A stretch of 64,000 nt of DNA from Gemmatimonadota bacterium (GTDB taxonomy: Bacteria > JAAXHH01). Shown here in pieces: positions 1-16,350 of the stretch; position 1 is the stretch's first letter, and each line of letters starts with the position of its first letter. Location of the stretch: positions 1 to 64,000 of the forward strand of contig VXRC01000001.1 of assembly GCA_009838645.1 (NCBI GenBank), given 5' to 3'. The translations under genes were made by a program, and so were the position numbers. The notes beneath the pieces are model-generated. The model had not been told where the DNA came from. It worked only from the letters and a program-made list of their open reading frames with translations, and did not search any database.

Positions 1-792
1 CACGGCATGCGCAAGGATTTCATCACCGCGCCGCTGCAGATGAGCCCGCAGGAAGGAAAGGGATTCAACGCGTGGTGGCCCATGCCCTTCAAGGAAAAGG
101 CCGTGCTGGAAGTGGAAAACCAGGGCGACGAAGGCTACTTCCATTACTTTTACATCGACTGCGAGGCCTATCCCACCGTTGACGCGGTGGCGGATCAGGC
201 GTATTTTCACGTACAGTGGCGCCGGGAGGCCGATACGAAGGGCTGGGCCTTCGAGGAAGGGCTCAAACCCGACGAATACCGGAAGGACCCGCGCTGGCTG
301 AATACGAGCGACCGGGACAACTACGTCATCTGCGACGTCGAGGGCGACGGTATCTACTGCGGCGCCCACCTGGACATCGACTGCTTTCAGCGGAACCCGA
401 ACGACTGGTACGGCGAAGGCGACGACATGATGTTTATCGACGGAGAGGCGTGGCCCCCGTCGCTGCACGGGACCGGCACCGAAGACTGGTATCACGGCGC
501 GTACGGTCCGACGACGGAGTTCCAGGCGCCGTACCACGGGATCATACTCTACAGCGGGAACCCGGACTGGAGATTCAAGGGCAAGAACACCGTATACCGT
601 TATCATATTGAAGATCCGATCCGGTTTCGGAAGAGCTTCCGCATGTCCATCGAGCACGGCCATGCGAACAAACTGAGCAACGATTACGCCAGCACCGCCT
701 ACTACTATCTTTCCGAACCACGGAGCGGCGGACCGGTCCTGTTGCCGGTCGACGAACGACTGCCGCGACCGAACGAGGAGTGGTACGGCTGA
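1..792 (+). CDS. DUF2961 family protein (GH172-like), 5'-truncated by window edge
   Basis: The frame is open from the first base, so this is the C-terminal part of a longer gene whose start lies outside the window. The visible 263 residues carry the DUF2961 signature: an HGTGTEDW motif followed by a YGPTTEF segment and aromatic-rich beta strands. DUF2961 includes glycoside hydrolase family 172 (difructose dianhydride and arabinofuranosidase-type enzymes), so a carbohydrate-active role is likely, but the substrate cannot be read from sequence. A PhyH gene follows 30 bases later on the same strand, which suggests co-transcription. Confidence 0.85.
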   Translation, partial: HGMRKDFITAPLQMSPQEGKGFNAWWPMPFKEKAVLEVENQGDEGYFHYFYIDCEAYPTVDAVADQAYFHVQWRREADTKGWAFEEGLKPDEYRKDPRWLNTSDRDNYVICDVEGDGIYCGAHLDIDCFQRNPNDWYGEGDDMMFIDGEAWPPSLHGTGTEDWYHGAYGPTTEFQAPYHGIILYSGNPDWRFKGKNTVYRYHIEDPIRFRKSFRMSIEHGHANKLSNDYASTAYYYLSEPRSGGPVLLPVDERLPRPNEEWYG

Positions 793-822
793 GGACGAGC
801 AGCCCCATTATTGGAGGTCCAG

Positions 823-1677
823 ATGTTATCACAGGAGCAGGTTGAGTTCTACCACGAGAACGGTTACATGACCGTCGACAAAGTGCTTTCCGACGCGGAG
901 GTCGCGGATCTGCAGCGGGTGACGGACGAATTCGTTCAGAAAGCGGCCGCCTTTACCGAACACACGGATTTTTACGATCTCGAGCCGGGGCACTCGGCGC
1001 ACGATCCGCAGGTGCGCCGCCTCAAAAGCCCGATCGATCACCACGACGTGTACATGCGCACCATCAAACACGACAACATCCTGGACATCGTCGCGCAACT
1101 GATCGGCGACGACATCCGGACCAACGGCAACAAGCTGAACATGAAGTCCGCCGACTATGGCAGCCCGGTGGAGTGGCACCAGGACTGGTCCTTTTATCCC
1201 CACACCAACGACGACATTCTGGCCGTGGGCGTCTGCATCGATGAGATGACCGAAGCCAACGGCGCCCTGCTGGTGATTCCGGGCTCCCACAAAGGCCCGA
1301 CTTACAATCACCACCAGGACGGAAGGTTCTGCGGCGCGGTGAACGATCCCGATTTCACCGCGGAAAACGTCGTGGCGCTCGAAGTGCCCGCAGGCGGGAT
1401 ATCCATCCATCACGTCCGGACGCTGCATGGTTCAGCGCCGAACTATTCGGGCGCACCACGGCGCTTGCTCTTGTTCCAGATGGCTGCCGCCGACGCCTGG
1501 CCGCTCACGGGAGCGGGCGACTGGGACGTCTTCAACGGCAACCTCCTCCGGGGCGAACCGACCAACGTACCGCGCATGGCCGACCTACCCGTGCGCATGC
1601 CCCTTCCCGGACCGGAACGAGGCGGCTCGATCTACGAGACCCAGTCGGTCCTCGAGAACAAGACCTGGGCCCGGTGA
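823..1677 (+). CDS. Phytanoyl-CoA dioxygenase (PhyH) family protein
   Basis: A 284-residue Fe(II)/2-oxoglutarate-dependent oxygenase of the PhyH family. The iron-binding HxD lies in the VEWHQDWSF segment, and the distal His is in the HHVRTLHGS segment, which fits the 2-His-1-carboxylate facial triad. The ATG at 823 is preferred over an in-frame TTG at 811 because a GGAGG ribosome site sits at 813-817. The substrate is unknown; bacterial PhyH enzymes hydroxylate a wide range of small molecules. The 3' end overlaps the next gene by four bases (GTGA), implying translational coupling. It is one of five PhyH genes in this window. Confidence 0.9.
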   Translation: MLSQEQVEFYHENGYMTVDKVLSDAEVADLQRVTDEFVQKAAAFTEHTDFYDLEPGHSAHDPQVRRLKSPIDHHDVYMRTIKHDNILDIVAQLIGDDIRTNGNKLNMKSADYGSPVEWHQDWSFYPHTNDDILAVGVCIDEMTEANGALLVIPGSHKGPTYNHHQDGRFCGAVNDPDFTAENVVALEVPAGGISIHHVRTLHGSAPNYSGAPRRLLLFQMAAADAWPLTGAGDWDVFNGNLLRGEPTNVPRMADLPVRMPLPGPERGGSIYETQSVLENKTWAR

Positions 1678-2129
1678 ACGAGCCCGCCCATAGCGAGTCG
1701 GAACACAGGCATCCGATCCTGTTTTTCGATGGCGTGTGCGGCCTCTGCAACCGGTTCGTCGACTTTATGCTGCAGGCCGACAGGCAGCACCGGTTCCGGT
1801 TTGCGCCGCTTCAGGGCGAAACCGCGCGACGCCTGCTGGGAATGCATAATCAGGCCGGTGGCCACGAGCCGGGCGATCCCCAGGCGGGCGATCCCCGATC
1901 TTTCATATTCCTCGATACAGACAGGCAATACGAACAGTCCAATGCCGTTTTGCACGCCCTGATACGATTGGGCGGCGCATGGCGATTGATCGCCGTGCTG
2001 TATGTTTTTCCACGTCCCCAGCGCGATTTCATCTATCACATCGTCGCGCGCAACCGGTACCGCTGGTTCGGCAGGCGCGACGCGTGCAGGATGCCCACGC
2101 CCAAAGAACGCGATCGGTTTCTTCCGTGA
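1674..2129 (+). CDS. DCC family thiol-disulfide oxidoreductase (DUF393)
   Basis: A 151-residue protein with the DCC signature near the N-terminus: a hydrophobic strand, FFDGVCGLCN with the CxxC pair, then a conserved helix. DCC proteins are small thioredoxin-like predicted thiol-disulfide oxidoreductases. It starts with GTG overlapping the stop of the PhyH gene, so it is probably translated from the same message. A central GDP-rich segment is encoded by a 15-bp tandem repeat (1852-1896) and looks like a non-conserved loop insertion. The conserved C-terminal half (YHIVARNRYRWFGRR) is intact. Confidence 0.88.
   Translation: MNEPAHSESEHRHPILFFDGVCGLCNRFVDFMLQADRQHRFRFAPLQGETARRLLGMHNQAGGHEPGDPQAGDPRSFIFLDTDRQYEQSNAVLHALIRLGGAWRLIAVLYVFPRPQRDFIYHIVARNRYRWFGRRDACRMPTPKERDRFLP
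1852..1896 (+). repeat. 15-bp in-frame tandem repeat, about 3 units
   Basis: Three consecutive 15-bp units begin at 1852, 1867 and 1882. The last two differ at one position and share the core GGGCGATCCCC. They lie inside the DCC gene and preserve its frame, adding five residues per unit. Confidence 0.75.
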
Positions 2130-2196
2130 CGGGCGACATCGATTTGTGTCCTGTACATTCGATCTGTGTCGTCCCTCTCCTCGCTACCCTCCCATC

Positions 2197-3078
2197 ATGA
2201 CCGCCAAATTCACTTCAGACAACCATCCCTTCGTTACCCCCGACGTAGTCAACGCGCTACCGAGCAAGCCCGCGGATTTCCGATCGTCTTACGGATCAAT
2301 GCCTCCTCAATACGGGGAATTGCGCATACCGGCCGGGCGTGGTCCTCATCCGGTGGCTGTGGTCCTGCACGGCGGTTGCTGGCTGTCGATTTACACTGAC
2401 CTGCGCAACGCGAATGCGCTGGCCGACGCCCTGCGGGACGAGGGCATCGCGACCTGGAACGTCGAATACCGGTGCGTGGACCAGGAGGGCGGCGGATGGC
2501 CGGGGACTTTTCACGATGCCGGGAATGCGACGGACCACCTGCGCACCCTGTCCGCGGATCACAATCTCGACCTGGACCGCGTCATCACCATCGGTCACTC
2601 GGCGGGCGGACACCTGGCCCTCTGGACGGCGGCACGCCAACGGCTGCCTGAGGAAAGCCCGCTCTGGACCGCGGACCCGTTGCCGTTACGCGGCACCGTC
2701 GTACTGGGCGGCCCCGGTGATCTGAATCGGTTTATTCCTCATGCGGACACGGAGTGCCGGCAGGGCGTGGTGACGGAACTGCTTGGATGTGCCGGCGTAT
2801 CATCCAAAGAACTTGAGAAGCGTATAGCGGGGCGATTTCGATGCGGATCGCCCATAGAAATGCTGCCCCTGGGCCTTCCGCAGGTCATGATCAGCACGGA
2901 ACACGACTGGGTGGTACCGCTGGAACTGGGTGAGGCCTACGCGGCGGCAGCCCACGCGGCCGGTGACCCTGTCGAACACGTCATCATCCCGAACGCCGGC
3001 CATCACGAGTTCATGGTACCGGGTTCCGCGACGTGGCCCACCGTACGCCAGGCCGTGCGTTCGCTGCTCGAAACCTGA
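2197..3078 (+). CDS. Alpha/beta hydrolase (esterase / kynurenine formamidase-like)
   Basis: A 293-residue alpha/beta hydrolase. The oxyanion-hole strand ends in VVLHGGCW, the nucleophile elbow is GHSAGG (Ser), an acid is expected in the TEHDWVVP segment and the catalytic His lies in NAGHHEF near the C-terminus. The layout matches the BD-FAE/kynurenine formamidase-like group (HGGxW plus GHSAGG), but the substrate is undetermined. The ATG at 2197 is chosen because the upstream extension to 2002 overlaps the DCC gene in another frame and has no homology-like content. No signal peptide is visible, so it is probably cytoplasmic. Confidence 0.85.
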   Translation: MTAKFTSDNHPFVTPDVVNALPSKPADFRSSYGSMPPQYGELRIPAGRGPHPVAVVLHGGCWLSIYTDLRNANALADALRDEGIATWNVEYRCVDQEGGGWPGTFHDAGNATDHLRTLSADHNLDLDRVITIGHSAGGHLALWTAARQRLPEESPLWTADPLPLRGTVVLGGPGDLNRFIPHADTECRQGVVTELLGCAGVSSKELEKRIAGRFRCGSPIEMLPLGLPQVMISTEHDWVVPLELGEAYAAAAHAAGDPVEHVIIPNAGHHEFMVPGSATWPTVRQAVRSLLET

Positions 3079-3118
3079 GACGACCTGCAGGTCAGGTCTA
3101 TTATCGAAAGGCCATGTC

Positions 3119-3505
3119 ATGCCCAACATCACCGTAAAACCTGACTGCAAGAACGCGCCAAAGAAGGCCCTGTTGCGGGATTTCATCTCCGCCTTCGCGC
3201 ATGCCGATATCGAAGGCGTCCTGTCGCCGATGAGCGACGATATCGTCTGGAACCTGGTGGGCGACAGCGTGATCGAAGGAAAAGAGAACGTCCGCGCATT
3301 GCTGGAAGCGATGAAAGGGGTCGGAACGAGCGACCTGGTCATCGAATCCATCATCACCCATGGCCGGGAGGCGGCAGTCAACGGCGTGATCCGATCGAAC
3401 TCGGGCCAGGCCCACGCCTTCTGCGATGTGGTTCAATTCACCAGTGCGGCGAGCATGAAGATAAAGACCATGACCTCCTACTCGATCGCCCTAGACGATG
3501 AGTAG
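3119..3505 (+). CDS. NTF2-like / SnoaL-type small protein
   Basis: A 128-residue protein whose helical start (LLRDFISAFAHADIEGVLSPMSDDIVWNLVG) and following strands match the NTF2-like cone fold, shared by SnoaL cyclases, limonene epoxide hydrolase-like enzymes and non-catalytic ligand binders. No specific catalytic set could be assigned. The ATG at 3119 is the natural start; a longer frame upstream overlaps the hydrolase gene. It lies 40 bases after the alpha/beta hydrolase and is the last backbone gene before base composition falls. Confidence 0.75.
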   Translation: MPNITVKPDCKNAPKKALLRDFISAFAHADIEGVLSPMSDDIVWNLVGDSVIEGKENVRALLEAMKGVGTSDLVIESIITHGREAAVNGVIRSNSGQAHAFCDVVQFTSAASMKIKTMTSYSIALDDE

Positions 3506-3967
3506 GCCTAGCCGACCAGAAACGCCCCGGACGAGGCGGACGCGTACCTTGCCTAGCTTCCAAAGGCCCTGCTAGAGAATACCTCGCGAGCACGGTTGTT
3601 GGAGTTGGAGTCCGGTTAAGGCAAAAACCTCGACCGATTATCGTAAAACCCGACGCGAAAAGGATATGATCATGGATTTGCTTACGTCGTATGGCACGGT
3701 GCTGAACAAAAATAGCAGCCGTTAATCTTCCAGAACAGATGGCGCCTTCGCGCTTCATTTACTGCGCTATGGCACGATGCGAAGCTGCCCAGATATTCCA
3801 TGTTGGACACAATAAAACTGCTCACAGTAACACACGGAGCCATATGTACCTCGTGATCGCCGTTCTGCTGGGCATTATGGTTAAGGTAATAGTTCGCCAT
3901 GGCCGGCTTCATCCTCTTTGTTATATTGTTACTTACATTCCCGAGATTAGTTGGATCATTCAGGTTT
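3506..3967. other. Intergenic boundary of the accessory island
   Basis: This 460-base stretch holds no convincing gene. A 19-codon frame at 3666-3725, preceded by an AAAAGGA-like ribosome site and ending in TAA, could be the stump of a gene cut by island insertion, but it is too short to identify. Sequence becomes visibly AT-richer from about 3700. No integrase, tRNA end or clear att repeat was seen here. An ORF reading 3739-4146 overlaps the helicase gene antisense and is not supported. Confidence 0.5.
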
Positions 3968-5377
3968 TCAATCAGGTAGTCTGTTCGACATCAGCATTTC
4001 ACAAAATTGCAAAGGTGTCATGTTGGCGAAGGAAACACCCTTATTGGGATCTCCGACGATTCGCCGGGCCATTTCAGCTTTTCTCTCAAGCGCCTGCACA
4101 ACAACCTCGTCGAGCGTATCTTCAGCAATCAAGCGGAGATAAGTAACCCCCAATTCCTGGCCAATACGATGGTTACGGTCTTGGCTTTGTGCATACAAAT
4201 CATATCTCCAGTTAAGCGTCTCATAGATGGCGTAGGTTGCGGCCGTCATTGTGAATCCAGTTCCGGCGGCCGCGGGGTTGGCGATGAGCAGGTTTACCTT
4301 CCCGTCCGATTGAAATGACTGGACAATGTCTTGCCTTTCGTCAGTAGGCGTACCCCCATACAAACTCACCACCCCATAGTGCTGGTATCTTTCCACAAGA
4401 TCCTCAATGGTACGTACGTAGTATGACCAGAGGATCACTTTTCTGCCACACGAGCCAATTAGCTCATGTAACATCCTATCTAATTCTTCGAACTTTGCGG
4501 GTTCGCGTTTTTCTTCTGGATTGACTAGGGCAGGATTGCTTGCAATCTGGGATAATCTTAGAAGTCGAGTGAAAGCCGTCGACGCGAAGGCCTGAAACTC
4601 CTCCCCATCCATGCTACTTACGTCCCTCACGATACCGTCACGTGTGTCACAGTAGAGTTCGCGCTGCCAAGGCGGAAGAGGGACGTATATATCCACAAAA
4701 GTTTTTGCTGGCAAATCTAAGCATTCCTCCTTGGTGCGGCGGAGCAAATAAGTGGATATCCTGGATGCAAGTTTCTCCTGTAAAATTGGGTTTTCAGTCG
4801 CATCGCCGTAGTCGATCATAAAAACATCGTAGGGTCCGAGAATGTTGTCATTGGTGACAAGGCCGATCTGGGTATGGATATCACTCGGGCTATTCGTGAC
4901 AGGAGTACCCGTCAACAGCCACCGAAAATCTGCTAAGGGGGCTAAGTATCGTGCGGAAACACTAGTGAGGGAGTATCTACTTTTGACATAGTGCGATTCA
5001 TCGAGCACCAGGACTGGATGGAGTCGGCGCATGAGTGCTCTGATCGGTGCTATCTCCCCTCTCGCCGCTTCGTAGTTTATAATAACAACATCCTCGAATA
5101 CGTTCGCTAACAGTGCACGCCTTGTCCGAGCAGATCCCTCTATTATTCTGACGGTTAAAGTTGGAGCGAATTCTCTGATCTCCCGGCTCCATGTCCGCTT
5201 CAATGAATTCGGGCAAAGTACGAGCATGTGCTCTGCACGGTTCTGATGGCGCAACTTCAAGAATGCCTCAATTGCGGTTAGTGTTTTTCCCAACCCCTGT
5301 TCAAATGCAAGGATTCCACACCTTTGCCTGACAAGGAATTCACGGCCCTCGATTTGGTGGGACATTAGTTTGGGCAC
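3968..5377 (-). CDS. SNF2-family DNA helicase/translocase
   Basis: A minimal 469-residue SNF2/RAD54-type ATPase. Walker A is FEQGLGKT (residues 25-32), the Walker B box is DESH (126-129), motif III is LLTGTPV, and the second RecA lobe has a GTPTDERQ segment and motif VI QSQDRNHRIGQ. All core motifs are present, so it should be an active dsDNA translocase. There is no accessory nuclease domain. Its start shares base 5377 with the stop of the upstream ParB-like gene, so the two are translationally coupled. Such stand-alone SNF2 enzymes occur in phage-defence and mobile-element operons. The base composition is lower in GC than the backbone. Confidence 0.93.
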   Translation of the reverse strand: MPKLMSHQIEGREFLVRQRCGILAFEQGLGKTLTAIEAFLKLRHQNRAEHMLVLCPNSLKRTWSREIREFAPTLTVRIIEGSARTRRALLANVFEDVVIINYEAARGEIAPIRALMRRLHPVLVLDESHYVKSRYSLTSVSARYLAPLADFRWLLTGTPVTNSPSDIHTQIGLVTNDNILGPYDVFMIDYGDATENPILQEKLASRISTYLLRRTKEECLDLPAKTFVDIYVPLPPWQRELYCDTRDGIVRDVSSMDGEEFQAFASTAFTRLLRLSQIASNPALVNPEEKREPAKFEELDRMLHELIGSCGRKVILWSYYVRTIEDLVERYQHYGVVSLYGGTPTDERQDIVQSFQSDGKVNLLIANPAAAGTGFTMTAATYAIYETLNWRYDLYAQSQDRNHRIGQELGVTYLRLIAEDTLDEVVVQALERKAEMARRIVGDPNKGVSFANMTPLQFCEMLMSNRLPD

Positions 5378-6591
5378 TAGCTAGACCTCCATGGCGAGTA
5401 CCGTTGGAGGCGGTGTTCGAAATCCTCCAACCCCTCTTGCAGGTCTTTATACTCATCACGGGTTATCGACTTGACATCCTTTAGGGAAGCAGATTGTAAC
5501 CCGAGTGTAAATTGACGCAGGTGTAGACGGAAAGCTCCGACGCCAGCGGGACGAGACGCCAGCAAGTCAACGCAACGTTGTAATTCGTCGACCACCTCAT
5601 CGTCGAACTCCTCGTCGCGCTCCAACGCACGTTCCAGCTGTCCATGTAGTCCTGAGATCTTGCCATTGATTCCGGTTTGGCCTGCCCGTAACTGATTTGC
5701 GATGTTGTGAGCGGCGTGGCGTTCGTGGGATTTCAAGACCTCCCATTTCTCCGGGTCTTCGCGATACTGTGCCATGTGTCTGGCATCCCGGTATTCTTTG
5801 AAGACGTCATGCCTGACCATCTCAAAGACCTCTCCTCTTAACTGCTCACCTTCGGCAGTGTTAGCTTTCACCTTCGCCCCGAAACCTGTTGCCTTGCTGA
5901 TTTCCTCCAAAGTACTAAAGTGATTAAGGGCTAACCTCTGAGCGTCGTCATCGTCGACGAACTCCACGAACTGTTTAGCGAACTTATACGCATCTCTCAA
6001 CCGGGAGGCCCAAGACGTGCTCTTTCCCATATGGGAAGCAAGTTCTGTCAAACTAAACAGGGCTGAATCACCCTCGACCTTCTCGTAGATAAACATTGCC
6101 TGTACATACCTGCCCCAATTCCTCACACCAGAACCACGAACATGAATCTGTGCGAGAAGTACTGCGTTTTCCCTTTCTGAAAAATTAGGTGGAAGAACCT
6201 TGACTTTTACCCTTCGATATCGACTTTGGTTCGGCTTTCCTTCGTATCGCCGAGACAGATCACGGAGGACTGTTACCCTGGTTGCACCCTCTATCACTAG
6301 GTATCTATGGCCTTCGCTAGGCCAAACGTAAATTGGTTCTAACTGGCCAAGATCGTCGATGGACTTTCTCAGTGCATCGTAGCCGTTAGTCCGCATCAGG
6401 GTGGCTTCCATTTCATCTTCGCTAGGAATCCCCTCTGTTAGATATGGGATGAGCCTCGGATTGTCCGACCAGAGATGGACATCGTCGAAGACGTCTAGTT
6501 CATCTGCAGGAAGCTGGTATTCCGTTCCTCCAATGTGTTCACGATAGTAATTCGGGACCGGGTTAAATTGCTTTTCACTCATCTGAGTCAT
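5377..6591 (-). CDS. ParB/KorB-like DNA-binding protein
   Basis: A 404-residue protein with a ParB N-terminal (ParB/Srx) domain: the IYVWP strand followed by LVIEGATRVTVLRDL, in which the EGxxR box fits the CTP-binding ParB motif. A helix-turn-helix-like segment (SLTELASHMGKSTSWASRL) follows near residue 180. The C-terminal third is charged and helical (probably coiled coil). It is sandwiched between the GIY-YIG gene (17-base overlap) and the SNF2 helicase (1-base overlap), so the three form one operon. No ParA partner is present. That argues against plasmid partition and for a role in loading the helicase or nuclease on DNA (inference). Confidence 0.85.
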   Translation of the reverse strand: MTQMSEKQFNPVPNYYREHIGGTEYQLPADELDVFDDVHLWSDNPRLIPYLTEGIPSEDEMEATLMRTNGYDALRKSIDDLGQLEPIYVWPSEGHRYLVIEGATRVTVLRDLSRRYEGKPNQSRYRRVKVKVLPPNFSERENAVLLAQIHVRGSGVRNWGRYVQAMFIYEKVEGDSALFSLTELASHMGKSTSWASRLRDAYKFAKQFVEFVDDDDAQRLALNHFSTLEEISKATGFGAKVKANTAEGEQLRGEVFEMVRHDVFKEYRDARHMAQYREDPEKWEVLKSHERHAAHNIANQLRAGQTGINGKISGLHGQLERALERDEEFDDEVVDELQRCVDLLASRPAGVGAFRLHLRQFTLGLQSASLKDVKSITRDEYKDLQEGLEDFEHRLQRYSPWRSS

Positions 6592-7000
6592 CTCCTATAT
6601 CCAATGATGGCACTGCCATCGGTGGTAAGTTTGAAAACAGTGGTGGAGCAGCAGGTACCTGGTCGTTGCAAATCGGGTCAAGAAGCCGAATGAGAAAAGA
6701 TTCCACTCTATAAGAGAGGAACGGACCGACTGGAGCCGCGCTAAAATAGGTGGTATCGATGTCCTGGATGCACCGGATTGATGTCTTTGCTCGAGGATGA
6801 GTTATGTGTTCCCACAGGCGACGACGGATGTTATTAGTCCTCCCAGCGTAAAACACGGGATAGCCACCATAAGCACAAGAGAACGAGTGCAACATGTATA
6901 CACCTCCGATTCCATACGGAATGCGTGACACCTCCTCGTTACATAGCAGCATCGGTCCAACCCAATCCAAAACAATTCTTGTTTCGACAAGTTCAATCAT
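6575..7000 (-). CDS. GIY-YIG nuclease domain protein
   Basis: A 141-residue protein with a complete GIY-YIG core: GVY (33-35), FYAG (50-53), the RTNNIRRRL helix with the catalytic Arg, Glu100 in the RVESF segment and a distal Asn at 112. It is little more than the nuclease domain, so DNA specificity probably comes from a partner. It is the first gene of the operon with the ParB-like and SNF2 genes, and it is divergent from the cytosine methyltransferase across about 120 bases. GIY-YIG enzymes can act as restriction, repair or homing endonucleases; which applies here cannot be told from sequence. Confidence 0.88.
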   Translation of the reverse strand: MIELVETRIVLDWVGPMLLCNEEVSRIPYGIGGVYMLHSFSCAYGGYPVFYAGRTNNIRRRLWEHITHPRAKTSIRCIQDIDTTYFSAAPVGPFLSYRVESFLIRLLDPICNDQVPAAPPLFSNLPPMAVPSLDIGDDSDE

Positions 7001-7119
7001 GATATCGACAAAGTATATACCGCCTCAGCAAAAAGCAACAGCTTTTTTTCCTGAGATGGTTAATACTATTCTTTTGTTTAGTTGTCTCAGGTGGTATATT
7101 CTGCATGGGGGGAGTGACT
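7001..7119. promoter_or_regulatory. Divergent promoter region between GIY-YIG operon and dcm
   Basis: An AT-rich spacer between divergent genes. It contains a perfect hairpin AAAAAGC-AACA-GCTTTTT (7030-7047) followed by more T, an inverted repeat CCTGAGA (7050-7056) / TCTCAGG (7085-7091), and a TATATT -10-like hexamer at 7095-7100 reading toward the methyltransferase. No equally good -35 box was found at 16-18 bases. The inverted repeats could be operator or attenuator sites coordinating nuclease and methylase expression. Confidence 0.5.
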
Positions 7120-8352
7120 ATGCAGAAAGATCAAATGGTCTTCTATGAACCGTCCATTTCACAATCCGATAACACGGATATGAGTTGTATAGATTTGTTC
7201 TCTGGGGCTGGTGGAATGGCTGAGGGATTTCGACAAGCTGGATTTAAAGTCCTTTCAGCGAACGACGCAGATCCGGCTTCAACTGAGACTTTCCGAGATA
7301 ATTTCCCAGAAGCTCGTTTCATCAAGGGCCCTATTGAACTTCTGCAACCTGAGAACTTGGTTAATGGACACAGCATAGTTGAAGGCGAAATTGATTGTGT
7401 CATTGGCGGTCCGCCGTGCCAAGCATTCAGCATAAACAACCATCGAAGATCAGCAGAAGATGATCGGGCGGGGCTGTTTCGTGATTACCTTCGAATCGTT
7501 AAAGCACTGAAACCCCGCACTCTTGTGATGGAGAATGTTCCAGGTATCCTGTCGATCAACAACGGTGCTGTCGTTAAGGAAATCGAGGAATCCCTGGCTG
7601 CACTCGGATACCAGAGCAAGACACGGATACTTTATGCTGAGGAGTACGGAGTTCCCCAGGAGCGAAGGAGGGTTTTTATTACAGCCACCAGATTGGGCTG
7701 GGATGACTCCCTAATCCCAGATGGCACCTATGGTCCAAGGCCAAAGCCATCCAAACACTCAGGGCACTTTATTCATCGATGGCGACGTTGTAACAGCATG
7801 GTGTACGGACATATGAACTCATTAACTGTCGGCGCCGCTATCGGCGATCTGCCTGAGATTGAAAACGGTGGAGGCTCTGACATGATGAAGTTTGGCAGCC
7901 CCCCGAAGACTCAGCTCCAGTTCTTATTACGAGATAAAGCGGAATACGTCTATAATCATTATACGAGGTGTTTAAGTGAGAATATGATGAAGCGGATACA
8001 GGTAGTTCCTGAAGGCGGATCTTGGAGGGACCTTCCGTGGGATCTACTTCCTGCTGGTATGAGACGGGCAAATCGTAACTCACATACGAAACGCTACGGC
8101 CGTCCGAGATCAAGATCCAGAAGCTGTACAATACTCACAAAGTGTGATCCTCACTGGGGAAGCTACATACATCCTACGCAGAATCGCACGCTCTCGGTCC
8201 GGGAGACTGCTCGAATACAGTCGTTTCCAGATCGATTCCGGTTCTACGGTGGGATTGGCTCTCAGTATGCCCAAGTTGGGAATGCCGTTCCTCCTCTTCT
8301 AGCGGCCGCCATTGCTAACTCAGTCAAGCAGCATCTAGTAAAGCGGCGGTAG
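7120..8352 (+). CDS. dcm: DNA (cytosine-5-)-methyltransferase
   Basis: A 410-residue C5-cytosine methyltransferase with the canonical motif order: SAM-binding DLFSGAGGM (I), GGPPCQAFS with the catalytic Cys (IV), ENVPGI (VI), QERRRVF (VIII) and GNAVPP (X). The variable target-recognition stretch lies between motifs VIII and IX, so the recognition sequence is unknown. The ATG at 7120 is preferred over 7105 because a GGGGGGAG ribosome site lies at 7107-7113. A Vsr gene follows after 22 bases, the classic dcm-vsr arrangement. It may protect host DNA from the divergent GIY-YIG nuclease, but a cognate restriction enzyme is not proven. Confidence 0.95.
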   Translation: MQKDQMVFYEPSISQSDNTDMSCIDLFSGAGGMAEGFRQAGFKVLSANDADPASTETFRDNFPEARFIKGPIELLQPENLVNGHSIVEGEIDCVIGGPPCQAFSINNHRRSAEDDRAGLFRDYLRIVKALKPRTLVMENVPGILSINNGAVVKEIEESLAALGYQSKTRILYAEEYGVPQERRRVFITATRLGWDDSLIPDGTYGPRPKPSKHSGHFIHRWRRCNSMVYGHMNSLTVGAAIGDLPEIENGGGSDMMKFGSPPKTQLQFLLRDKAEYVYNHYTRCLSENMMKRIQVVPEGGSWRDLPWDLLPAGMRRANRNSHTKRYGRPRSRSRSCTILTKCDPHWGSYIHPTQNRTLSVRETARIQSFPDRFRFYGGIGSQYAQVGNAVPPLLAAAIANSVKQHLVKRR

Positions 8353-8374
8353 ACCGTAGTGATGAGGCATCTGA

Positions 8375-8857
8375 ATGCCCGATATCTTCGATCCGCGTAA
8401 GCGTAGTGAGATTATGGGCAAGATCAGAAGTACGGGCACCGCACCAGAAGTCCATTTGCAGCGTATGGTTCGGGCAATACTGGGCCACCGCTGGCGCATT
8501 GAGTACAACGTGGGTGATCTACCAGGGAAACCAGATGTACTCATTCCTACCCTGTCGCTCATTGTGTTCCTCGATAGCTGTTTCTTCCATCAATGCCCGC
8601 AGCACGGACGAATCCCAGACACTAATCAAGCCTACTGGAAGCCCAAGCTGGCGAAGAACGTCAAACGCGATAGAGCTAACCGTCGTAAATTAAGGTCAAT
8701 GGGTTACAGTGTGTGGCGGTTCTGGAGCCACGATTTGAACGGTCGCCGGATTGAGGTTACATATAGCAAACTAGAAAGGCGGCTCCTGCTGCGTGTGGAA
8801 ATGTGGAATCGACTAGGGAGACCAAGATCTCCGGGAGTCACTGTAGGACGTCTATAA
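8375..8857 (+). CDS. vsr: Very short patch repair (Vsr) endonuclease
   Basis: A 160-residue Vsr family endonuclease, which nicks DNA at T:G mismatches left by deamination of 5-methylcytosine. Visible features are the N-terminal RSEIMGKIRSTGT segment, LPGKPDVL with the catalytic Asp (residue 54), a FLDSCFFHQC block corresponding to the family's HGCFWHxH block, and YWKPKLAKNVKRDR. In that block the usual His-Gly is Asp-Ser and the intercalating Trp is Phe, so activity may differ from the E. coli enzyme. It sits directly behind the methyltransferase whose damage it would repair. Confidence 0.92.
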   Translation: MPDIFDPRKRSEIMGKIRSTGTAPEVHLQRMVRAILGHRWRIEYNVGDLPGKPDVLIPTLSLIVFLDSCFFHQCPQHGRIPDTNQAYWKPKLAKNVKRDRANRRKLRSMGYSVWRFWSHDLNGRRIEVTYSKLERRLLLRVEMWNRLGRPRSPGVTVGRL

Positions 8858-8977
8858 ACCAGCTATGCGAAGGGCAATCGGCTAGACAGTCTTTACGGCA
8901 ACGTAACACAGTACCTAGCACAAATAAGGGCACTGTAGACACTGCCAAAATGTTGTAAGTGCGTACAGCAGGATTCC

Positions 8978-9217
8978 ATGGAATTCCCGGAATTACCAAA
9001 CGGAGCCCCGAAAGTGACAGAGCGCAGACCACGTCCTCAAATGCCCACATTCGTGAAGGCCTTGATTGTCATGATGATAGGCATTCTTGCCGGTGGAACA
9101 TTAAATTTCATGCTTGGCGATCAGGGCGCCGATACGCCCGCCTTTGCGATCTACGGTGGGGTACTCGCACTCGTGATCTACATCGTACAAGCGCGATTGA
9201 GAGCGCGAAAGAAGTAG
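8978..9217 (+). CDS. Small two-helix membrane protein
   Basis: A 79-residue protein with a Pro/Arg-rich polar N-terminus, two hydrophobic stretches (about residues 25-45 and 54-70) and a basic C-terminal tail (RLRARKK), consistent with a two-pass inner-membrane protein. No family is recognised. An AGGA ribosome site precedes the ATG. It lies 120 bases after vsr and just before the hisC remnant, and its composition is closer to the backbone than to the island, so it may be a surviving native gene between two insertions. Confidence 0.6.
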   Translation: MEFPELPNGAPKVTERRPRPQMPTFVKALIVMMIGILAGGTLNFMLGDQGADTPAFAIYGGVLALVIYIVQARLRARKK

Positions 9218-9295: not shown

Positions 9296-9600
9296 CTACA
9301 CGGCCAGCACTTCCCGTAGTGCATCCAGAAAGGCATCGTTCTCTTCGGGCAGGCAACCCGATGGTGACCCGCAGGTCTCGTTCCAGCATGGGATACCAGC
9401 TCACGTCGAGAATCAGCACACCCCGGTCAATGAGTCCGTGGAAGATCTAGGTCACAGGACGTTCCGCCTCGAAGAGTATGAAGTTGGCGTGCGACGGTTA
9501 GGGTTAATTGCCGGCAGAGGTCCCGCAGGGCTTCGAAGACCCGTTGTCTTTCCGCCCGGATCATCGACGCACGTTCCTCGATCAGCGCATCGTGACCGAA
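9296..9600 (-). pseudogene. Decayed 3' end of hisC (remnant of a divergent copy)
   Basis: On the minus strand this segment encodes, in two frames interrupted by indels, the last ~100 residues of histidinol-phosphate aminotransferase. DALIEERASMIR, RQRVFEALRDL, ERDLRVTIGLP and the final VLA-stop all correspond to the intact hisC at 15286-16350. By eye about four bases in five match the intact gene, and many differences fall in third codon positions. Homology stops abruptly near 9600, inside hisC. The copy is in direct orientation with the intact hisC, so the two copies flank the Ubl operon, the peptidase and the GNAT gene. Confidence 0.88.
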
Positions 9601-9725
9601 CCTGAATGCACCGAGCGCGTCAACTACCAGATTCCGGTCTTCTGGCTGAAGAGAGACTTCGTGGCCATGTCGACCGTAACGAAACATGTCGGTTTCCACA
9701 ATAAAACATACGCATTCCCGTGGCG

Positions 9726-9869
9726 ATGAAAGAGGAGTCCGGTGAAGAAGGCATCTGGATATTAGGAACCACTTTCCGAATCAAGCAAGGGACCGACTTG
9801 CCGGAGGCGCTACAGGAGAGGGCCTTGCGGGCACGCCTGGTGGAGTTGGAGGCTAACCGAGAAAGGTGA
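9726..9869 (+). CDS. Short hypothetical ORF (47 aa)
   Basis: An open frame of 47 codons with a charged, Glu/Arg-rich product (ends LVELEANRER). There is no recognisable family and no strong ribosome site. It lies between the hisC remnant and the Ubl promoter. It could be a gene fragment left by the same rearrangement. Coding status is doubtful. Confidence 0.25.
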   Translation: MKEESGEEGIWILGTTFRIKQGTDLPEALQERALRARLVELEANRER

Positions 9870-9989: not shown

Positions 9990-10037
9990 AATTGTCAAAA
10001 AGCAATTGACATGCGAATAGGCAATGACTATATTGCC
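9990..10037 (+). promoter_or_regulatory. Sigma70 promoter with overlapping operator for the Ubl operon
   Basis: TTGACA (10006-10011) and TATATT (10029-10034) are separated by exactly 17 bases, a near-consensus housekeeping promoter with transcription expected to start near 10041. An inverted repeat GGCAAT-N6-ATTGCC (10020-10037) spans the -10 element. Two further half-sites, ATTGTC (9991-9996) and ATTGAC (10005-10010), are spaced 14 bases apart. This is a plausible binding array for the XRE regulator at the end of the operon (inference). An AAAGGAG ribosome site follows at 10062-10068. Confidence 0.75.
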
Positions 10038-10075
10038 CTTCGACACTAACAACCACCTTCCAAAGGAGCGAGAAA

Positions 10076-10345
10076 ATGACGACGAGAAACAATGATCCGC
10101 AGGTCATCGAAGTCAAGACTGTCACCATTGAAGTAAACGACCATAAGGTGGAGATGCATGGCGGACCAGCGACAGGCCTTGAGATAAAGGAGGCCGCGAT
10201 CAAACAGGGGGTCAGTATTCAACTGAACTTCGTTTTACAGGTCCAACTGCCGAACGGATCAAGCAAGGTAATCGGAGATGGGGACAAGGTACCATTGACT
10301 GATCACCTCGCCTTCACCGCTATCGCCGCGGATGACAATAGCTAG
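10076..10345 (+). CDS. Ubiquitin-like protein (multiubiquitin-domain family)
   Basis: An 89-residue protein resembling a single 'multiubiquitin' (prokaryotic Ubl) domain: VKTVTIEVNDHKVEMHG as the first beta hairpin, a TGLEIKEAAIKQGV helix, then strands ending in LTDHLAFTAIAADDNS. It is the first gene of an operon with an E2-like protein, a JAB-E1 fusion and an XRE regulator, the standard setting for bacterial Ubl conjugation modules. The C-terminus has no Gly-Gly and no glycine after residue 69, unlike Ubls that are adenylated at a terminal glycine. A strong promoter and AAAGGAG ribosome site precede it. Confidence 0.85.
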   Translation: MTTRNNDPQVIEVKTVTIEVNDHKVEMHGGPATGLEIKEAAIKQGVSIQLNFVLQVQLPNGSSKVIGDGDKVPLTDHLAFTAIAADDNS

Positions 10346-10354
10346 GGACGTCCA

Positions 10355-10741
10355 ATGAAACAAGATGTAGCTACCGCGATTGAGGAGTTGAAACGAGCGT
10401 TTCCGTCCTCCGTAGTATGTAGTTCGGAGGACGGAAGCGGGGGGGCGTACGTTGTTATCGAGAATGTCGAAATCGGGGATCGGTATCAGCCATCGACCAC
10501 TTGGCTTGGAGGCCATATCACGGCGCTATATCCATACGCCGACATATATCCACACTTCATTGGAGACGACGTAAGCCGAATAGACGGTGTGCCTTTTGAA
10601 CCGCCAATTACCGCCGGAGCTCAGTTCCTCGGTCGACCGGCCTTGCAGGTGTCTCGTCGCAATAACCATACTCAGAACTATCCTCAGACAGCGGTGGCGA
10701 AATTCGTTAAGGTATTACATTTCCTAGAGGAACTCCGATGA
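10355..10741 (+). CDS. E2/UBC-like protein (prokaryotic E2 family, probably family E)
   Basis: A 128-residue protein with E2-fold features: a helical start, strands through IENVEIGDRYQP, and ALYPYADIYPHF, which resembles the YP..P segment of ubiquitin-conjugating enzymes, then a C-terminal helix. The only cysteine is Cys22 near the N-terminus. None occurs at the position downstream of the YP segment where canonical E2s carry the thioester Cys, so it may be a UEV-like scaffold or use other chemistry. It begins 9 bases after the Ubl gene and its stop overlaps the JAB-E1 start (ATGA). The family assignment comes mostly from motif resemblance and operon context. Confidence 0.75.
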   Translation: MKQDVATAIEELKRAFPSSVVCSSEDGSGGAYVVIENVEIGDRYQPSTTWLGGHITALYPYADIYPHFIGDDVSRIDGVPFEPPITAGAQFLGRPALQVSRRNNHTQNYPQTAVAKFVKVLHFLEELR

Positions 10742-12105
10742 CTGCGGAGACTTGCGACATCCTGGTGACTTCCAAGCATCACCAGCAAATCATGAAGCAT
10801 CTGTATCCCGGCGATCATGATGAGTACGGTGCGATCCTTCGTGCTGGCGTCGTGCGCAATGGATCTTCCATGCGATTGTTGGTGCAAAACGTACAGCCGG
10901 CGGAATTCGGAACCGACTACGTCCCAGGCCAATACGGATACCGGGCACTCACACCTACCTTCATTCACAGAGAAATCATCAAGTGCCGGGATTCAGGCCT
11001 GGCTTACCTCGCAATTCACAACCATGGAAGTGATCGCAAAGTCGGATTCAGTAAAATCGATATCGATTCGCATAAACGCGGGTATCCGGCGCTCCTCGAT
11101 ATTGGCCGCGGAGTTCCGGTTGGTGCTCTAGTGTATGGCCACCGATCCGTGGCCGCTGATATCTGGCTGCCAGATGGTAGCCGTCGCACGCTTGGGTCAT
11201 ACCGTATCATCGGCAACGAGATTACAAGGCTTTACTCTCAACCCCGTCGAGCTCGTGGGTCGAAAAACGAGCACGATCGTCAAGTACGAATGTTCGGCTC
11301 AGCTGGACAACAGATCCTGAATGCGAGCAAGGTTGCTGTAATCGGGCTTGGTGGTGTAGGTTCGCTAGTGGCGGAATACCTCGCACGACTTGGGGTTGGG
11401 AATCTAGTACTCATCGATCCGGAAGAAATAGAACGCAGTAATCTTAGTCGTGTAGTTGGTGCTACAAGAATCGACGTTGAAATGGGTCAGCTCAAAACCC
11501 AGATTGCGGTTCGTCACATTCGGGAGATGGCGACAGATGCCACACTGCAGCCAATCGCCTTAGACGTTTCACGGAGGTCGGTTGCTCAGATTCTGCGTGA
11601 TTGTGACTTCATCTTCCTAGCCGCAGACTCCATGCGAGCCCGGCTTGTTGTCAATGCTCTTGCCCATCAGTACCTCATTCCAACGATACAAATGGGTGCA
11701 AAGATACGGAGGGGTAATCGTGGCAGACTTGATGATGCCATGTGTGCGGTGCGAAATATCAGACCGGGTATAGGCTGCCTATGGTGTAACGGTCTGATCG
11801 ATTCGACTCAGCTTGCTATTGAGGCAAAGTCGGACCAGGAACGAAAGAATCAGGCCTACGGTGTACAAGAAGCCAACCCTAGCGTGATCACTTTAAACGC
11901 AGTTGCTGCCGCCCATGCCGTTAACGACTTTCTGTTCGATTTTTTAGATCTTAGAAAAGATGAAACGGATACAGCCTTTCAGAACTTTCATTTCCATCAT
12001 AGCAAGATACAAAACGTTATTCCGCGCCACGATAAGGAATGTAGAGAATGCGTACACAGGTTGGCTATGGGCGACGCACTCGAACTACCGGTTGTGGAAG
12101 GATGA
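10738..12105 (+). CDS. JAB (JAMM) deubiquitinase-E1 activating enzyme fusion
   Basis: A 455-residue two-domain protein. Residues 1-160 are a JAB/MPN metalloprotease with a full JAMM set: Glu29, His94-x-His96-Gly, Ser105 and Asp108. Residues 180-445 are a ThiF/E1 adenylation domain: the HDRQVRMFG arginine segment, nucleotide loop GLGGVG (203-208), Asp227, Asn235-x-x-Arg238, and two CxxC pairs (347/350 and 435/438) that probably bind zinc. One protein could therefore both activate the Ubl and trim or remove it. It overlaps the E2-like gene by four bases. Both active sites look intact. A catalytic Cys for thioester formation is not obvious; Cys336 is one candidate. Confidence 0.93.
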   Translation: MTAETCDILVTSKHHQQIMKHLYPGDHDEYGAILRAGVVRNGSSMRLLVQNVQPAEFGTDYVPGQYGYRALTPTFIHREIIKCRDSGLAYLAIHNHGSDRKVGFSKIDIDSHKRGYPALLDIGRGVPVGALVYGHRSVAADIWLPDGSRRTLGSYRIIGNEITRLYSQPRRARGSKNEHDRQVRMFGSAGQQILNASKVAVIGLGGVGSLVAEYLARLGVGNLVLIDPEEIERSNLSRVVGATRIDVEMGQLKTQIAVRHIREMATDATLQPIALDVSRRSVAQILRDCDFIFLAADSMRARLVVNALAHQYLIPTIQMGAKIRRGNRGRLDDAMCAVRNIRPGIGCLWCNGLIDSTQLAIEAKSDQERKNQAYGVQEANPSVITLNAVAAAHAVNDFLFDFLDLRKDETDTAFQNFHFHHSKIQNVIPRHDKECRECVHRLAMGDALELPVVEG

Positions 12106-12195
12106 CGTGGTATCGCTGGACTTGGAAGTTTGTGCAAGGTCAATTCAATCATTGATTCTATTTCATATAGAGTGGGACAAAAAGGGAACCTGTCA

Positions 12196-12540
12196 ATGAC
12201 TCAGCGATTAGATTTCGACTTCGCAGCTTACTTTAAAGCACTCAGCACTACCGTGACCGCTCGAAGTCTTAGTTGGAAGAAGGTAAGTGAGCAAACCGGG
12301 GTCTCTCAGTCCACGCTATCTAGGATGTCAAAGGGCCGCCAACCAGACGCAGCCAGCCTTACGGCTCTCTCTGCGTGGTCAGGGCTCAACCCCGTAGATT
12401 TCACAAAAACTCCGAGGAACGAACCTGAAGCTGTTGCTAAGGTTACCAGGCTACTACGTGCGGACCCAAACCTTGATGAGGAAGGGGCTGACGCGCTCGA
12501 AGCCATCATCACGACGGCCTACGAGAAGCTCAAGCGGTAG
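12196..12540 (+). CDS. XRE-family helix-turn-helix regulator of the Ubl operon
   Basis: A 114-residue protein with an HTH_3-like domain at about residues 20-70 (SWKKVSEQTGVSQSTLSRMSKGRQP) and a short helical C-terminus. The ATG at 12196 is favoured by an AAAGGGA ribosome-site-like stretch; a longer frame from 12130 has a weaker context. It lies 90 bases after the JAB-E1 gene in the same direction, probably in the same transcript, and is a natural candidate to bind the inverted repeat over the operon promoter. It is convergent with the small protein at 12558-12752, only 17 bases away. Confidence 0.85.
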   Translation: MTQRLDFDFAAYFKALSTTVTARSLSWKKVSEQTGVSQSTLSRMSKGRQPDAASLTALSAWSGLNPVDFTKTPRNEPEAVAKVTRLLRADPNLDEEGADALEAIITTAYEKLKR

Positions 12541-12557: not shown

Positions 12558-12752
12558 TTATTTGTCACTCTTGGACTGACGCGGAGTAGATGCGGTAACT
12601 CGTAATTGAGCAGCAAGTTTCTCCCTTTGCTTGACCTTCTCAGCGATTTTAGGGACAGCCTTTTTTAAAGCGCTGCGCAACTCATCTATTAGAGTCATGT
12701 CCACTTTAGCTGGACTGCACTTCTCCAGATACTTCTTGAGTTTGTCGTTCAC
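12558..12752 (-). CDS. Small charged helical protein coupled to the cysteine peptidase
   Basis: A 64-residue, Lys-rich, predominantly helical protein (MNDKLKKYLEKCSP... LRSALKKAVPKIAEKVKQREKL). No family is recognised. Its ATG overlaps the stop of the upstream peptidase gene by four bases, a tight coupling that suggests a dedicated partner such as an inhibitor, adaptor or substrate of the peptidase (inference). It contains one cysteine (Cys12). Confidence 0.6.
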   Translation of the reverse strand: MNDKLKKYLEKCSPAKVDMTLIDELRSALKKAVPKIAEKVKQREKLAAQLRVTASTPRQSKSDK

Positions 12753-14272
12753 TTTTCACCTCCGAGTTCTGAGGTTTCTGTGATCGTGTTGAGGGGTGCC
12801 GGCGACTCTAAGACAGGGCGAAGATTAAGTTCAATTCGTGGTAATGGTCCGAGACCAGTACGAGCGAGGTCGATAGCCGTGGGGTTCATTTCTACCGAAG
12901 ACCGGTCGAATACGTAAGCGACATCTCCATTGTGCAGCAGCCACATAGGGTATCGCTCCCAATGACTAGCAGTAGCGTCGACGATCACCCGCGCAGCAAC
13001 ATGTGCTGTTTGCCATTGAGTGAAACTACAGTACTCTACTACCCACACGTATTGAGCAGTATCCAAGTGCATCATCAGTCCCACAAGGGTGTCACCTAGC
13101 TGTGAGTGGTGAACTCGGGCATCTTCTCGAAGCCTTGATATGGTCGTAATGAAGTAACGCCGAAGCTGAAGCGGTTCAGTTTGGGAACTGCACATGCGTG
13201 TTACTACATCCTCGACCTCTTTACTAAATACTTCTATCGCGTCAGCGGGATAGTAAACCTTGTCCGGTAACGCGACGACGAAAGCGTCGAACGAGTCGGC
13301 TGTGTAGTTAGAGGTATTCGACGGTGTTCCTGTTGAATTCAGTGTGACGGTGCTATATGGAAGTAGGTTATCGTCAACGGCCAGAAAGTTATCCACTTGC
13401 GACCAGACGTGCGATGACGAACTACTTGGAAGAATCGGTTTTTGCAGCCAGCTATAGCCGACGGCAACGATGGCGTGTTCCTCGGCATGCATGGCTACGA
13501 AGAGTGGAAATCCTGACTCTAGATAGGCCAACATCTGAGAGAAGAACGCTTCGTCCGAGGAGGAACTGCACTTTCCAACAACTAATGGGTAGCAGCCGGA
13601 TGCCTGAAACACACGTTCGGCTCCATCTACATTGAAGCCCAGTGAGGGCACCAATCCGCCAGGATCGAATGGGGCGACTAGTTGTGTAATGTCGTGAACG
13701 AGGTATTCTCGATGTTGCGGGAACGTCTCGCTATAATACCGAAGTATGGCCCAACAGGCCACATGGGCGCACACAGCTATATCAACATGTTGGGCCATAG
13801 AAGGAAAACCCCATATGGGGAGTTGATGGCCAAGCAGGTTGACTGTGTGAGGTGACTGGATTGCACTTCCATGTGCACCGAGTCGGATGTTTGGCGAGAG
13901 CACTGATCGCCCTAAAGTGGCGACGATGGTTGGTCTCAGTACGATGTAGCCGAAGTAGTGGTCTTGTGGACGCTCGTCCGTAGATTTGATGTCTGACTTG
14001 ACGTCGTCATACAGAACCGAACCATCAAAGAAGTGCAGACGGACACAATCTGCTCGATACTGACGACCCTTCTTTGTATAAAAGTTGTAAAACGTGCTCC
14101 GATAGTCTTTGTCTACGTATCCGTGCTCCACAAGCACGCCTTTAACTGCAGCGGTGACCTCCAGCTTGAGATGTTGACTTATCTTCTTAGGGCCGAACTC
14201 CGGGTCCAACACTTCTATGAGTTGATCGTAGTCTTGGGGTCCCTGGATTTCGATCCAATCATAAGAGGCCAA
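12749..14272 (-). CDS. C39/papain-like cysteine peptidase, multidomain
   Basis: A 507-residue protein. The central region (about 155-345) resembles peptidase C39/papain folds: Gln161 before the nucleophile, Cys168 followed ten residues later by RYY exactly as in C39 proteins, His266 in EEHAIVAVGYS and Asp300/301 in FLAVDDN. The N-terminal ~150 residues and the C-terminal ~160 residues match no family I recognise. No signal peptide or ABC-transporter domain is present, so it is not a bacteriocin exporter. It is convergent with the Ubl operon and coupled to a 64-residue protein. Its location suggests it processes, removes or responds to the Ubl, but this is untested inference. Confidence 0.65.
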   Translation of the reverse strand: MASYDWIEIQGPQDYDQLIEVLDPEFGPKKISQHLKLEVTAAVKGVLVEHGYVDKDYRSTFYNFYTKKGRQYRADCVRLHFFDGSVLYDDVKSDIKSTDERPQDHYFGYIVLRPTIVATLGRSVLSPNIRLGAHGSAIQSPHTVNLLGHQLPIWGFPSMAQHVDIAVCAHVACWAILRYYSETFPQHREYLVHDITQLVAPFDPGGLVPSLGFNVDGAERVFQASGCYPLVVGKCSSSSDEAFFSQMLAYLESGFPLFVAMHAEEHAIVAVGYSWLQKPILPSSSSSHVWSQVDNFLAVDDNLLPYSTVTLNSTGTPSNTSNYTADSFDAFVVALPDKVYYPADAIEVFSKEVEDVVTRMCSSQTEPLQLRRYFITTISRLREDARVHHSQLGDTLVGLMMHLDTAQYVWVVEYCSFTQWQTAHVAARVIVDATASHWERYPMWLLHNGDVAYVFDRSSVEMNPTAIDLARTGLGPLPRIELNLRPVLESPAPLNTITETSELGGEK

Positions 14273-15285: not shown

Positions 15286-16350
15286 TTACGTGGCCAGCAC
15301 TTCCCGCAGCGCATCGAGAAAGGCATCGTTTTCTGCCGGCAGTCCGATCGTCACGCGCATGCCTCGATCCAACATGGGATAGCGGCTGACGTCGCGAATG
15401 AGTACGCCCCGTTCGATGAGTCCGTGAAAGATCCCGGCCACCGGTCGGTCCGCCTCGAACAAGACGAAGTTGGCGTGCGACGGATGGGGGTTGATGCCCG
15501 GCAGGTCCCGCAGGGCTTCGTAGACCCGTTGCCTTTCCGACCGGATCATCGATGCACGCTCCTCGATCAGTGCATCCTGACCGATCAGCTTCCGTGCGGT
15601 AATCAGCGAGACGATGTTGACGTTGTAGGGAAGTTTGACTTTCTCGATCTCTCGCGCCACGGCAGGATCGGCAACGAGATACCCCAGGCGAAGGCCGGCC
15701 ACGCCGAGGGCTTTCGAGAAGGTGCGCGTGATCACCAGGTTGGGATGACGGTCCAGCAGTTCAATACACGACACGCCGCCGAACTCGAAATAGGCCTCGT
15801 CCACCACGACCAGGCCCGTGGTCGCTTCGGCGATCCGCGCCGTATCTTCCGGGGTGATCATCGAGCCGGTGGGGTTGTTCGGCGAACACAGCACCACCAG
15901 CCTGACATCCGGATCGGCACTTTCCTCCACCAGCCGATCGACGTCGAAGCTCAAATCCCGCTTGAGGTGTACCGTCCTTATGTCCGCGCCTGCGATCCTG
16001 CCCATGAGGGCGTACAGGGTGAAGGTCGGCGCGGGCAGTACGACCGCATCGCCCGTCGAGACCGTAGCCTGGAAGATCGACTGGATCAGTTCGTTCGAGC
16101 CGTTTCCAATCAGGATGTGCTCGGGACCCAGCCCATGCCGCTTGCCGATGGCCGCCTTGACCTCGCCGGGAACGAATCCAGGATAGCGGCCCCAGTTGCT
16201 CGCCAGGGCCTCGTCCACGATCTCCCGCTTCAGTTCCTCGGGCACGTCGAAGGGGCATTCGTTCTGGTTGAGCTTGACCGGGCAGTCCGGCTGGACCAGC
16301 GTGTAACCGGACATGGCGCGGACGGCGGGTTTTATGCTCGAAGCGGCCAC
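15286..16350 (-). CDS. hisC: Histidinol-phosphate aminotransferase
   Basis: A 354-residue PLP-dependent class I/II aminotransferase acting in step 7 of histidine biosynthesis. Visible are the substrate-binding KLNQNECPFD start, GNGSNELI, VVLCSPNNPTGS, VVVDEAYFEF, the Schiff-base lysine in TFSKALGVAGLRLGY and the C-terminal RVTIGLP with the phosphate-binding Arg. Length is normal. It starts two bases after hisG, so the two are coupled. A diverged, broken copy of its 3' third lies 5.7 kb away at 9296-9600 in the same orientation. Confidence 0.95.
   Translation of the reverse strand: MAASSIKPAVRAMSGYTLVQPDCPVKLNQNECPFDVPEELKREIVDEALASNWGRYPGFVPGEVKAAIGKRHGLGPEHILIGNGSNELIQSIFQATVSTGDAVVLPAPTFTLYALMGRIAGADIRTVHLKRDLSFDVDRLVEESADPDVRLVVLCSPNNPTGSMITPEDTARIAEATTGLVVVDEAYFEFGGVSCIELLDRHPNLVITRTFSKALGVAGLRLGYLVADPAVAREIEKVKLPYNVNIVSLITARKLIGQDALIEERASMIRSERQRVYEALRDLPGINPHPSHANFVLFEADRPVAGIFHGLIERGVLIRDVSRYPMLDRGMRVTIGLPAENDAFLDALREVLAT

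Follow-up and report, generated by a model that had tools for sequence, protein, structure and literature searches.

Genes and predicted control signals of the operon

The window, a 64,000-nucleotide stretch of DNA from a Gemmatimonadota bacterium, carries on its forward strand one tight operon encoding an 89-residue ubiquitin-like protein (Ubl, 10076-10345), a 128-residue E2-like protein (10355-10741) and a 455-residue fusion of a JAB metalloprotease and an E1 (JAB-E1, 10738-12105). The Ubl and E2-like genes are separated by 9 bases (10346-10354), and the E2-like and JAB-E1 genes overlap by 4 (10738-10741). An earlier note on this DNA had described this gap, this overlap and four open reading frames, all of which were found; its description of four tightly packed genes holds for the first three but not for the last, encoding a 114-residue XRE-type HTH regulator (12196-12540, forward strand), which lies 90 bp downstream of the JAB-E1 stop and is divergent in relatives instead. 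The recurrence of this gene order in distant phyla is more than chance would give. The operon is a member of a known group, defined as type 6e by Iyer et al. 2006 (PMC1779556) and now named Bub (PMC13373217), consisting of BubA, BubB and BubCD according to Gong 2025 and Ye 2026 as they are presented in PMC13373217. The earlier proposal of a Ubl, E2-family and JAB-E1 operon with its own regulator is supported.

The Ubl gene is preceded by a Shine-Dalgarno-like aaaggag, and its BubA-like product has a single Multi_ubiq domain (PF14452, E=1.7e-7, above the cut-off) and the C-terminal end ...ADDNS. Sequence and profile searches support both the Ubl and the E2 family suggested previously, but the E2-like protein has no conserved cysteine. 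As a single sequence this protein (P0002) matches nothing in Pfam or the PDB, and its BubB-like character emerges from its family: Prok-E2_E (PF14462) matches 5 of 11 members (best 2.6e-4), the family profile weakly matches Citrobacter BubB (9eae_C, E=0.0086), and hhalign gives a probability of 95% (3.9e-8) for the family's alignment to canonical relatives of BubB. By family profile only, the protein would be placed in the E2/RWD family as a member without the catalytic cysteine. Its predicted structure (pLDDT 37, from an alignment of two sequences) was discarded.

In JAB-E1 the JAB domain is N-terminal to the ThiF/E1 domain (ThiF 5.6e-38), a Multi_ubiq Ubl is encoded beside it, and residues 8-406 match Citrobacter BubCD (9ea4_A, E=4e-29), whereas MoeB, ThiF and eukaryotic E1s match far worse and cover the E1 half only. 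The JAMM residues E29, H94, H96, S105 and D108 and the two CxxC pairs, C347/C350 and C435/C438, are as first noted and are invariant in the clade of related loci described below. Across 21 loci the JAMM and ATP-site residues are all invariant.

The regulator is predicted to be a CapH-like repressor (HTH_3 at its cut-off). Its start is most likely ATG 12196, not TTG 12130, because this start and the bases upstream of it are conserved in a related locus, L001. Plasmid homologues that we fetched (44-51%) are paired with ImmA/IrrE proteases beside Bub or other defence-type genes, and the Synechocystis HTH/protease pair gives weak PADLOC capH and capP matches. The window protein (P0004) has no match to PADLOC capH. 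No ImmA/IrrE (CapP) protease gene is present beside the operon or on this contig, the genome's only two matches being on another contig.

Upstream of the Ubl gene, ATTGTCAAAAAGCAAT (9991-10006, forward strand) is a putative CapH-type operator with one mismatch to ATTGC-N6-GCAAT, a motif common to several intergenic regions of plasmid relatives, where it lies between the HTH and operon genes. Its quality was matched by none of 500 shuffles of the window's intergenic region, sites with one mismatch or none number only two in the whole 64 kb, and it is identical in L001; the consensus was chosen by eye from the relatives' intergenic regions before it was scored, so that for these relatives shuffling does not give an independent test of the motif. 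The putative operator overlaps the -35 box of a sigma-70-like promoter, TTGACA-17-TATATT (10006-10034, forward strand), which agrees with the consensus at 11 of 12 positions. Promoter-like sites are no more numerous in the region than in shuffles, and the call is made on quality and place.

The inserted cassette and its convergent genes

All parts of the operon, together with the convergent gene pair described below, lie inside an inserted cassette with approximate borders at 9869 and 14771, absent from five same-genus genomes. In four of these the sequences matching window positions 1-3610, about 8998-9216 and 14772 onward are contiguous, and both the cassette and a segment carrying Dcm and Vsr genes are absent; the fifth also lacks both, with a different junction. 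The left border of the cassette was set from remnant core-type DNA at 9601-9868. The region had been called an AT-rich island beside restriction-type genes. The first part is true only relatively (G+C is about 50% here and about 59% in the surroundings); as to the second, a Dcm-like methylase and Vsr are indeed neighbours, but both sit in a separate insertion (3611-8977). This second insertion, absent from relatives, encodes in addition an SNF2 helicase and ParB-like and GIY-YIG proteins, and no restriction enzyme was identified in it. On the left side of the cassette is a decayed copy of the 3' part of hisC (9297-9599, 78-91% in blocks against 15287-15584), 6 kb from the intact hisC. A 47-base repeat (74%) marks the left borders of both insertions (3564-3610 and 9805-9851); it may be an insertion site common to the two, where genes of a small family end.

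Converging on the operon from the reverse strand, an unannotated gene (12749-14272) encodes a 507-residue protein predicted to be a papain-like (C39-like) cysteine peptidase. Gln161, Cys168, Trp174, His266 and Asp300-Asp301 are invariant in six homologues, and Peptidase_C39_2 matches two members of the family (best 3.9e-5); there was no meaningful match in the PDB, and the predicted structure (pLDDT 30, again from two aligned sequences) was discarded. Homologues adjoin Bub operons in L001, L003 (Mesorhizobium) and L020 (a P. aeruginosa plasmid), and adjoin other genes in Shewanella and Hymenobacter. Two of the four plasmid records found by the peptidase sequence are Bub-adjacent, for which the chance is 1e-5 to 1e-4, taking 110 to 340 of 72,556 plasmids to be Bub-type and ignoring redundancy in the collection. 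The peptidase accompanies some clade loci only and is absent from many, and so is at most a candidate accessory component of the operon.

A second reverse-strand gene (12558-12752), which shares 4 bases with the end of the peptidase gene, encodes a 64-residue protein, a possible partner, that has a homologue at the same place in L001 (52% over 61 residues) and no convincing family match. The convergent pair (12558-14272) may belong with the operon. Open reading frames of about 55-60 codons upstream of the peptidase gene were considered as a conserved pair and rejected, their sequences being unlike and the window having no clear one. The five genes tested (Ubl, E2-like, JAB-E1, XRE and peptidase) are under purifying selection, with dN about a tenth of dS against L001.

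Relationship to canonical Bub operons

Related loci occur in a Gemmatimonadaceae MAG (85% for JAB-E1) and in one same-genus genome (46%), and others on plasmids of Rhizobium, Mesorhizobium, Mycolicibacterium, Nostoc, Rhodococcus and Deinococcus. Scans of viral contigs with the E1, E2 and peptidase gave no matches, and among the phage records listed there were matches to the ThiF half only and none to the peptidase. In a maximum-likelihood tree of JAB-E1, built without the divergent L020, 11 loci from several phyla, mostly on plasmids, form a clade with 100/100 support against ten canonical loci. By sequence, the window operon is in a branch distinct from canonical Bub, and the traits separating this clade are the absence of DUF6527, the Ubl end DDNS and the cysteine pattern.

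A profile search for DUF6527 found no match in any clade locus and matched each of the 11 canonical loci whose operon is intact, although the profile was built from nine of those 11, partly picked by annotation, leaving L031 and L032 as independent cases. L023, a canonical locus interrupted by an IS, is without DUF6527, and none is present in the whole genome to which the window belongs. The DUF6527 gene is a feature of the canonical loci examined, rather than one stated as universal for Bub or type 6e. L020 (2683-8010) is an odd Bub relative with Ubl, E1 and DUF6527, in which no JAB motif can be recognised and an E2 gene is not annotated; the gene that follows encodes the papain-like protein, here with an extra C-terminal part in common with L018.

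DDNS is the C-terminal sequence of 10 of the 11 aligned clade Ubls, whereas most canonical Ubls have TEG or NNG there, in some cases followed by a tail or by a fused E2. A C-terminal Gly, free or trimmed, is a trait of most canonical loci here and not a published criterion, and is absent too from the Ubl of the canonical-type L011. The window Ubl lacks it, having neither a Gly near its end nor a Gly-Gly tail, and DDNS is itself terminal. In a related operon of a same-genus genome (G007; L017, 5729-6270) the Ubl gene is frameshifted near its end and the other frame ends GDDNA, through assembly error or in reality.

Ubl transfer is usually described as proceeding via Gly-terminated modifiers and cysteine thioesters. 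The only cysteines invariant in all 11 clade E1s are C347, C350, C435 and C438. They make up the two CxxC pairs, which look like the zinc site of MoeB and presumably bind zinc. Among the clade E2-like proteins no Cys is invariant, and the usual thioester relay therefore has no invariant site. A further Cys, invariant in canonical E1s, is replaced by Ala or Gly in the clade (A295 here); we do not claim it as the canonical catalytic residue, since MoeB and ThiF also have a Cys at this position. C289 and C83, present in 9 of 11 clade members, may serve a lineage-specific thioester. Invariant in the clade E2-like proteins is a Ser-Arg pair (Ser100-Arg101), of which Ser100 aligns with the Ser of the canonical WSRH motif and would by that alignment lie near the E2 cysteine site, where its role may be structural. 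In a system that lacks both a conserved catalytic Cys and a Gly tail, conjugation through the usual thioester should not be taken for granted.

Proposed function and comparison with known systems

We propose with moderate confidence that the locus encodes a Bub-type conjugation/deconjugation module of a distinct sub-branch. The CapH-like repressor (12196-12540) would bind the putative operator over the -35 box, a site supported by sequence statistics, and hold the operon off, and induction, probably by DNA damage or infection if CapH relatives are a guide, would relieve this repression. The E1 half, in which the ATP-site residues are intact, would adenylate the C-terminus of the Ubl, here a Ser, and the activated Ubl would be passed on with the help of the E2-family protein. 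Because the E1 and E2 lack an invariant non-zinc Cys, the likeliest route would be via a Ser/Thr oxyester intermediate, for example on Ser100, or by direct attack of a target amine on the adenylate; an oxyester intermediate has reportedly been proposed for Bub. The JAMM half would remove the Ubl, and deconjugation seems more likely than maturation because no residues follow DDNS. More speculatively, the convergent peptidase and its small partner might be an accessory effector or regulator, possibly replacing the missing CapP protease. Within a mobile defence island, such a module would likely serve as an inducible system for defence or stress response. The earlier description of a minimal self-contained module with its own repressor survives as to module and regulator, with the changes that there may be an extra protease-like partner and that the protease with which the CapH-like regulator is normally paired is missing. 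The full combination of conjugation without a catalytic Cys in E1 or E2, a Ser-ended Ubl, a Ser ester or direct adenylate attack, and a papain-like accessory peptidase is a tentative proposal, more doubtful than the module as such.

The JAB half could instead trim the Ubl to an internal end, and the system might then be Bub-type with canonical chemistry, the Ser end and missing Cys being incidental. All the ATP-site and JAMM residues are indeed shared with canonical Bub, and trimming is implied by those canonical Ubls in which a Gly is followed by a tail or a fused E2. However, in the window Ubl there is no Gly near the end, the terminal DDNS is nearly invariant, and the clade has Ala or Gly where canonical E1s have Cys, so we regard this reading as rather unlikely. 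Another reading is an addiction system akin to toxin-antitoxin pairs, with toxicity coming from conjugation or from the papain-like peptidase and protection from the JAB half or the repressor. Iyer et al. put forward this idea for operons of the kind, and it would suit the repression signals and mobile context, but the peptidase does not accompany all clade members and we think this reading improbable. Least probable of all is a sulfur-carrier or small-molecule pathway (ThiS/MoaD or MccB-like) in which the E1 would activate the Ubl for thiocarboxylate or peptide chemistry and not for the tagging of proteins. The MoeB-like double CxxC, the lack of a conserved catalytic Cys and the relatedness of E1-like enzymes such as MccB to JAB-E1 might suggest it, but it is at odds with the missing Gly-Gly tail, the JAB fusion and E2-family partner, and the neighbouring genes, none of which was recognised as belonging to sulfur metabolism; nor is JAB-E1 the plain ThiF/MoeB pathway gene that would have undermined the earlier note, as it reaches no equivalog cut-off for a metabolic ThiF/MoeB E1 and its best match across most of the protein is Citrobacter BubCD.

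A Bub-type module in which neither a Gly end nor a conserved Cys is retained while adenylation and JAMM sites remain under selection would offer a small system for studying other routes of Ubl transfer, and an unannotated peptidase family repeatedly adjoins Bub operons. Part of the description of this clade may already be contained in Gong 2025 or Ye 2026. Antiphage protection by Bub operons had not been demonstrated according to a 2026 paper (PMC13373217). Among operons that do protect against phage, Bil (BilABCD) likewise brings Ubl, E2, E1 and JAB functions together in a single operon, but its E1 and JAB are separate proteins and its E1 and E2 are Cys-dependent (PMC11354881), whereas the window operon has neither a separate E1 with a catalytic Cys domain nor an E2 with a CEHH motif. 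Compared with CapH+CapP, the window HTH protein is a homologue of the HTH proteins that partner CapP-like proteases next to Bub operons and has a similar operator, but no ImmA/IrrE gene beside it, the two in the genome lying elsewhere. Type 6e operons (PMC1779556), such as that of Synechocystis pSYSX, are like the window operon in their JAB-E1 fusion, their one to three Ubl repeats, the Cys-less E2/RWD-like protein between them and a mobile, sporadic distribution; the window differs from pSYSX in lacking the DUF6527 gene and in its downstream regulator without an ImmA/IrrE partner. With Bub, as represented by the Citrobacter structures 9ea4 and 9eae, it shares the order of Ubl, E2-family and JAB-E1 genes and defence-type regulators nearby, but it is distant in sequence (26.8% to the canonical-type L012), its Ubl ends DDNS and is unfused to E2, A295 stands for the canonical Cys, DUF6527 is absent, and a papain-like peptidase is its neighbour.
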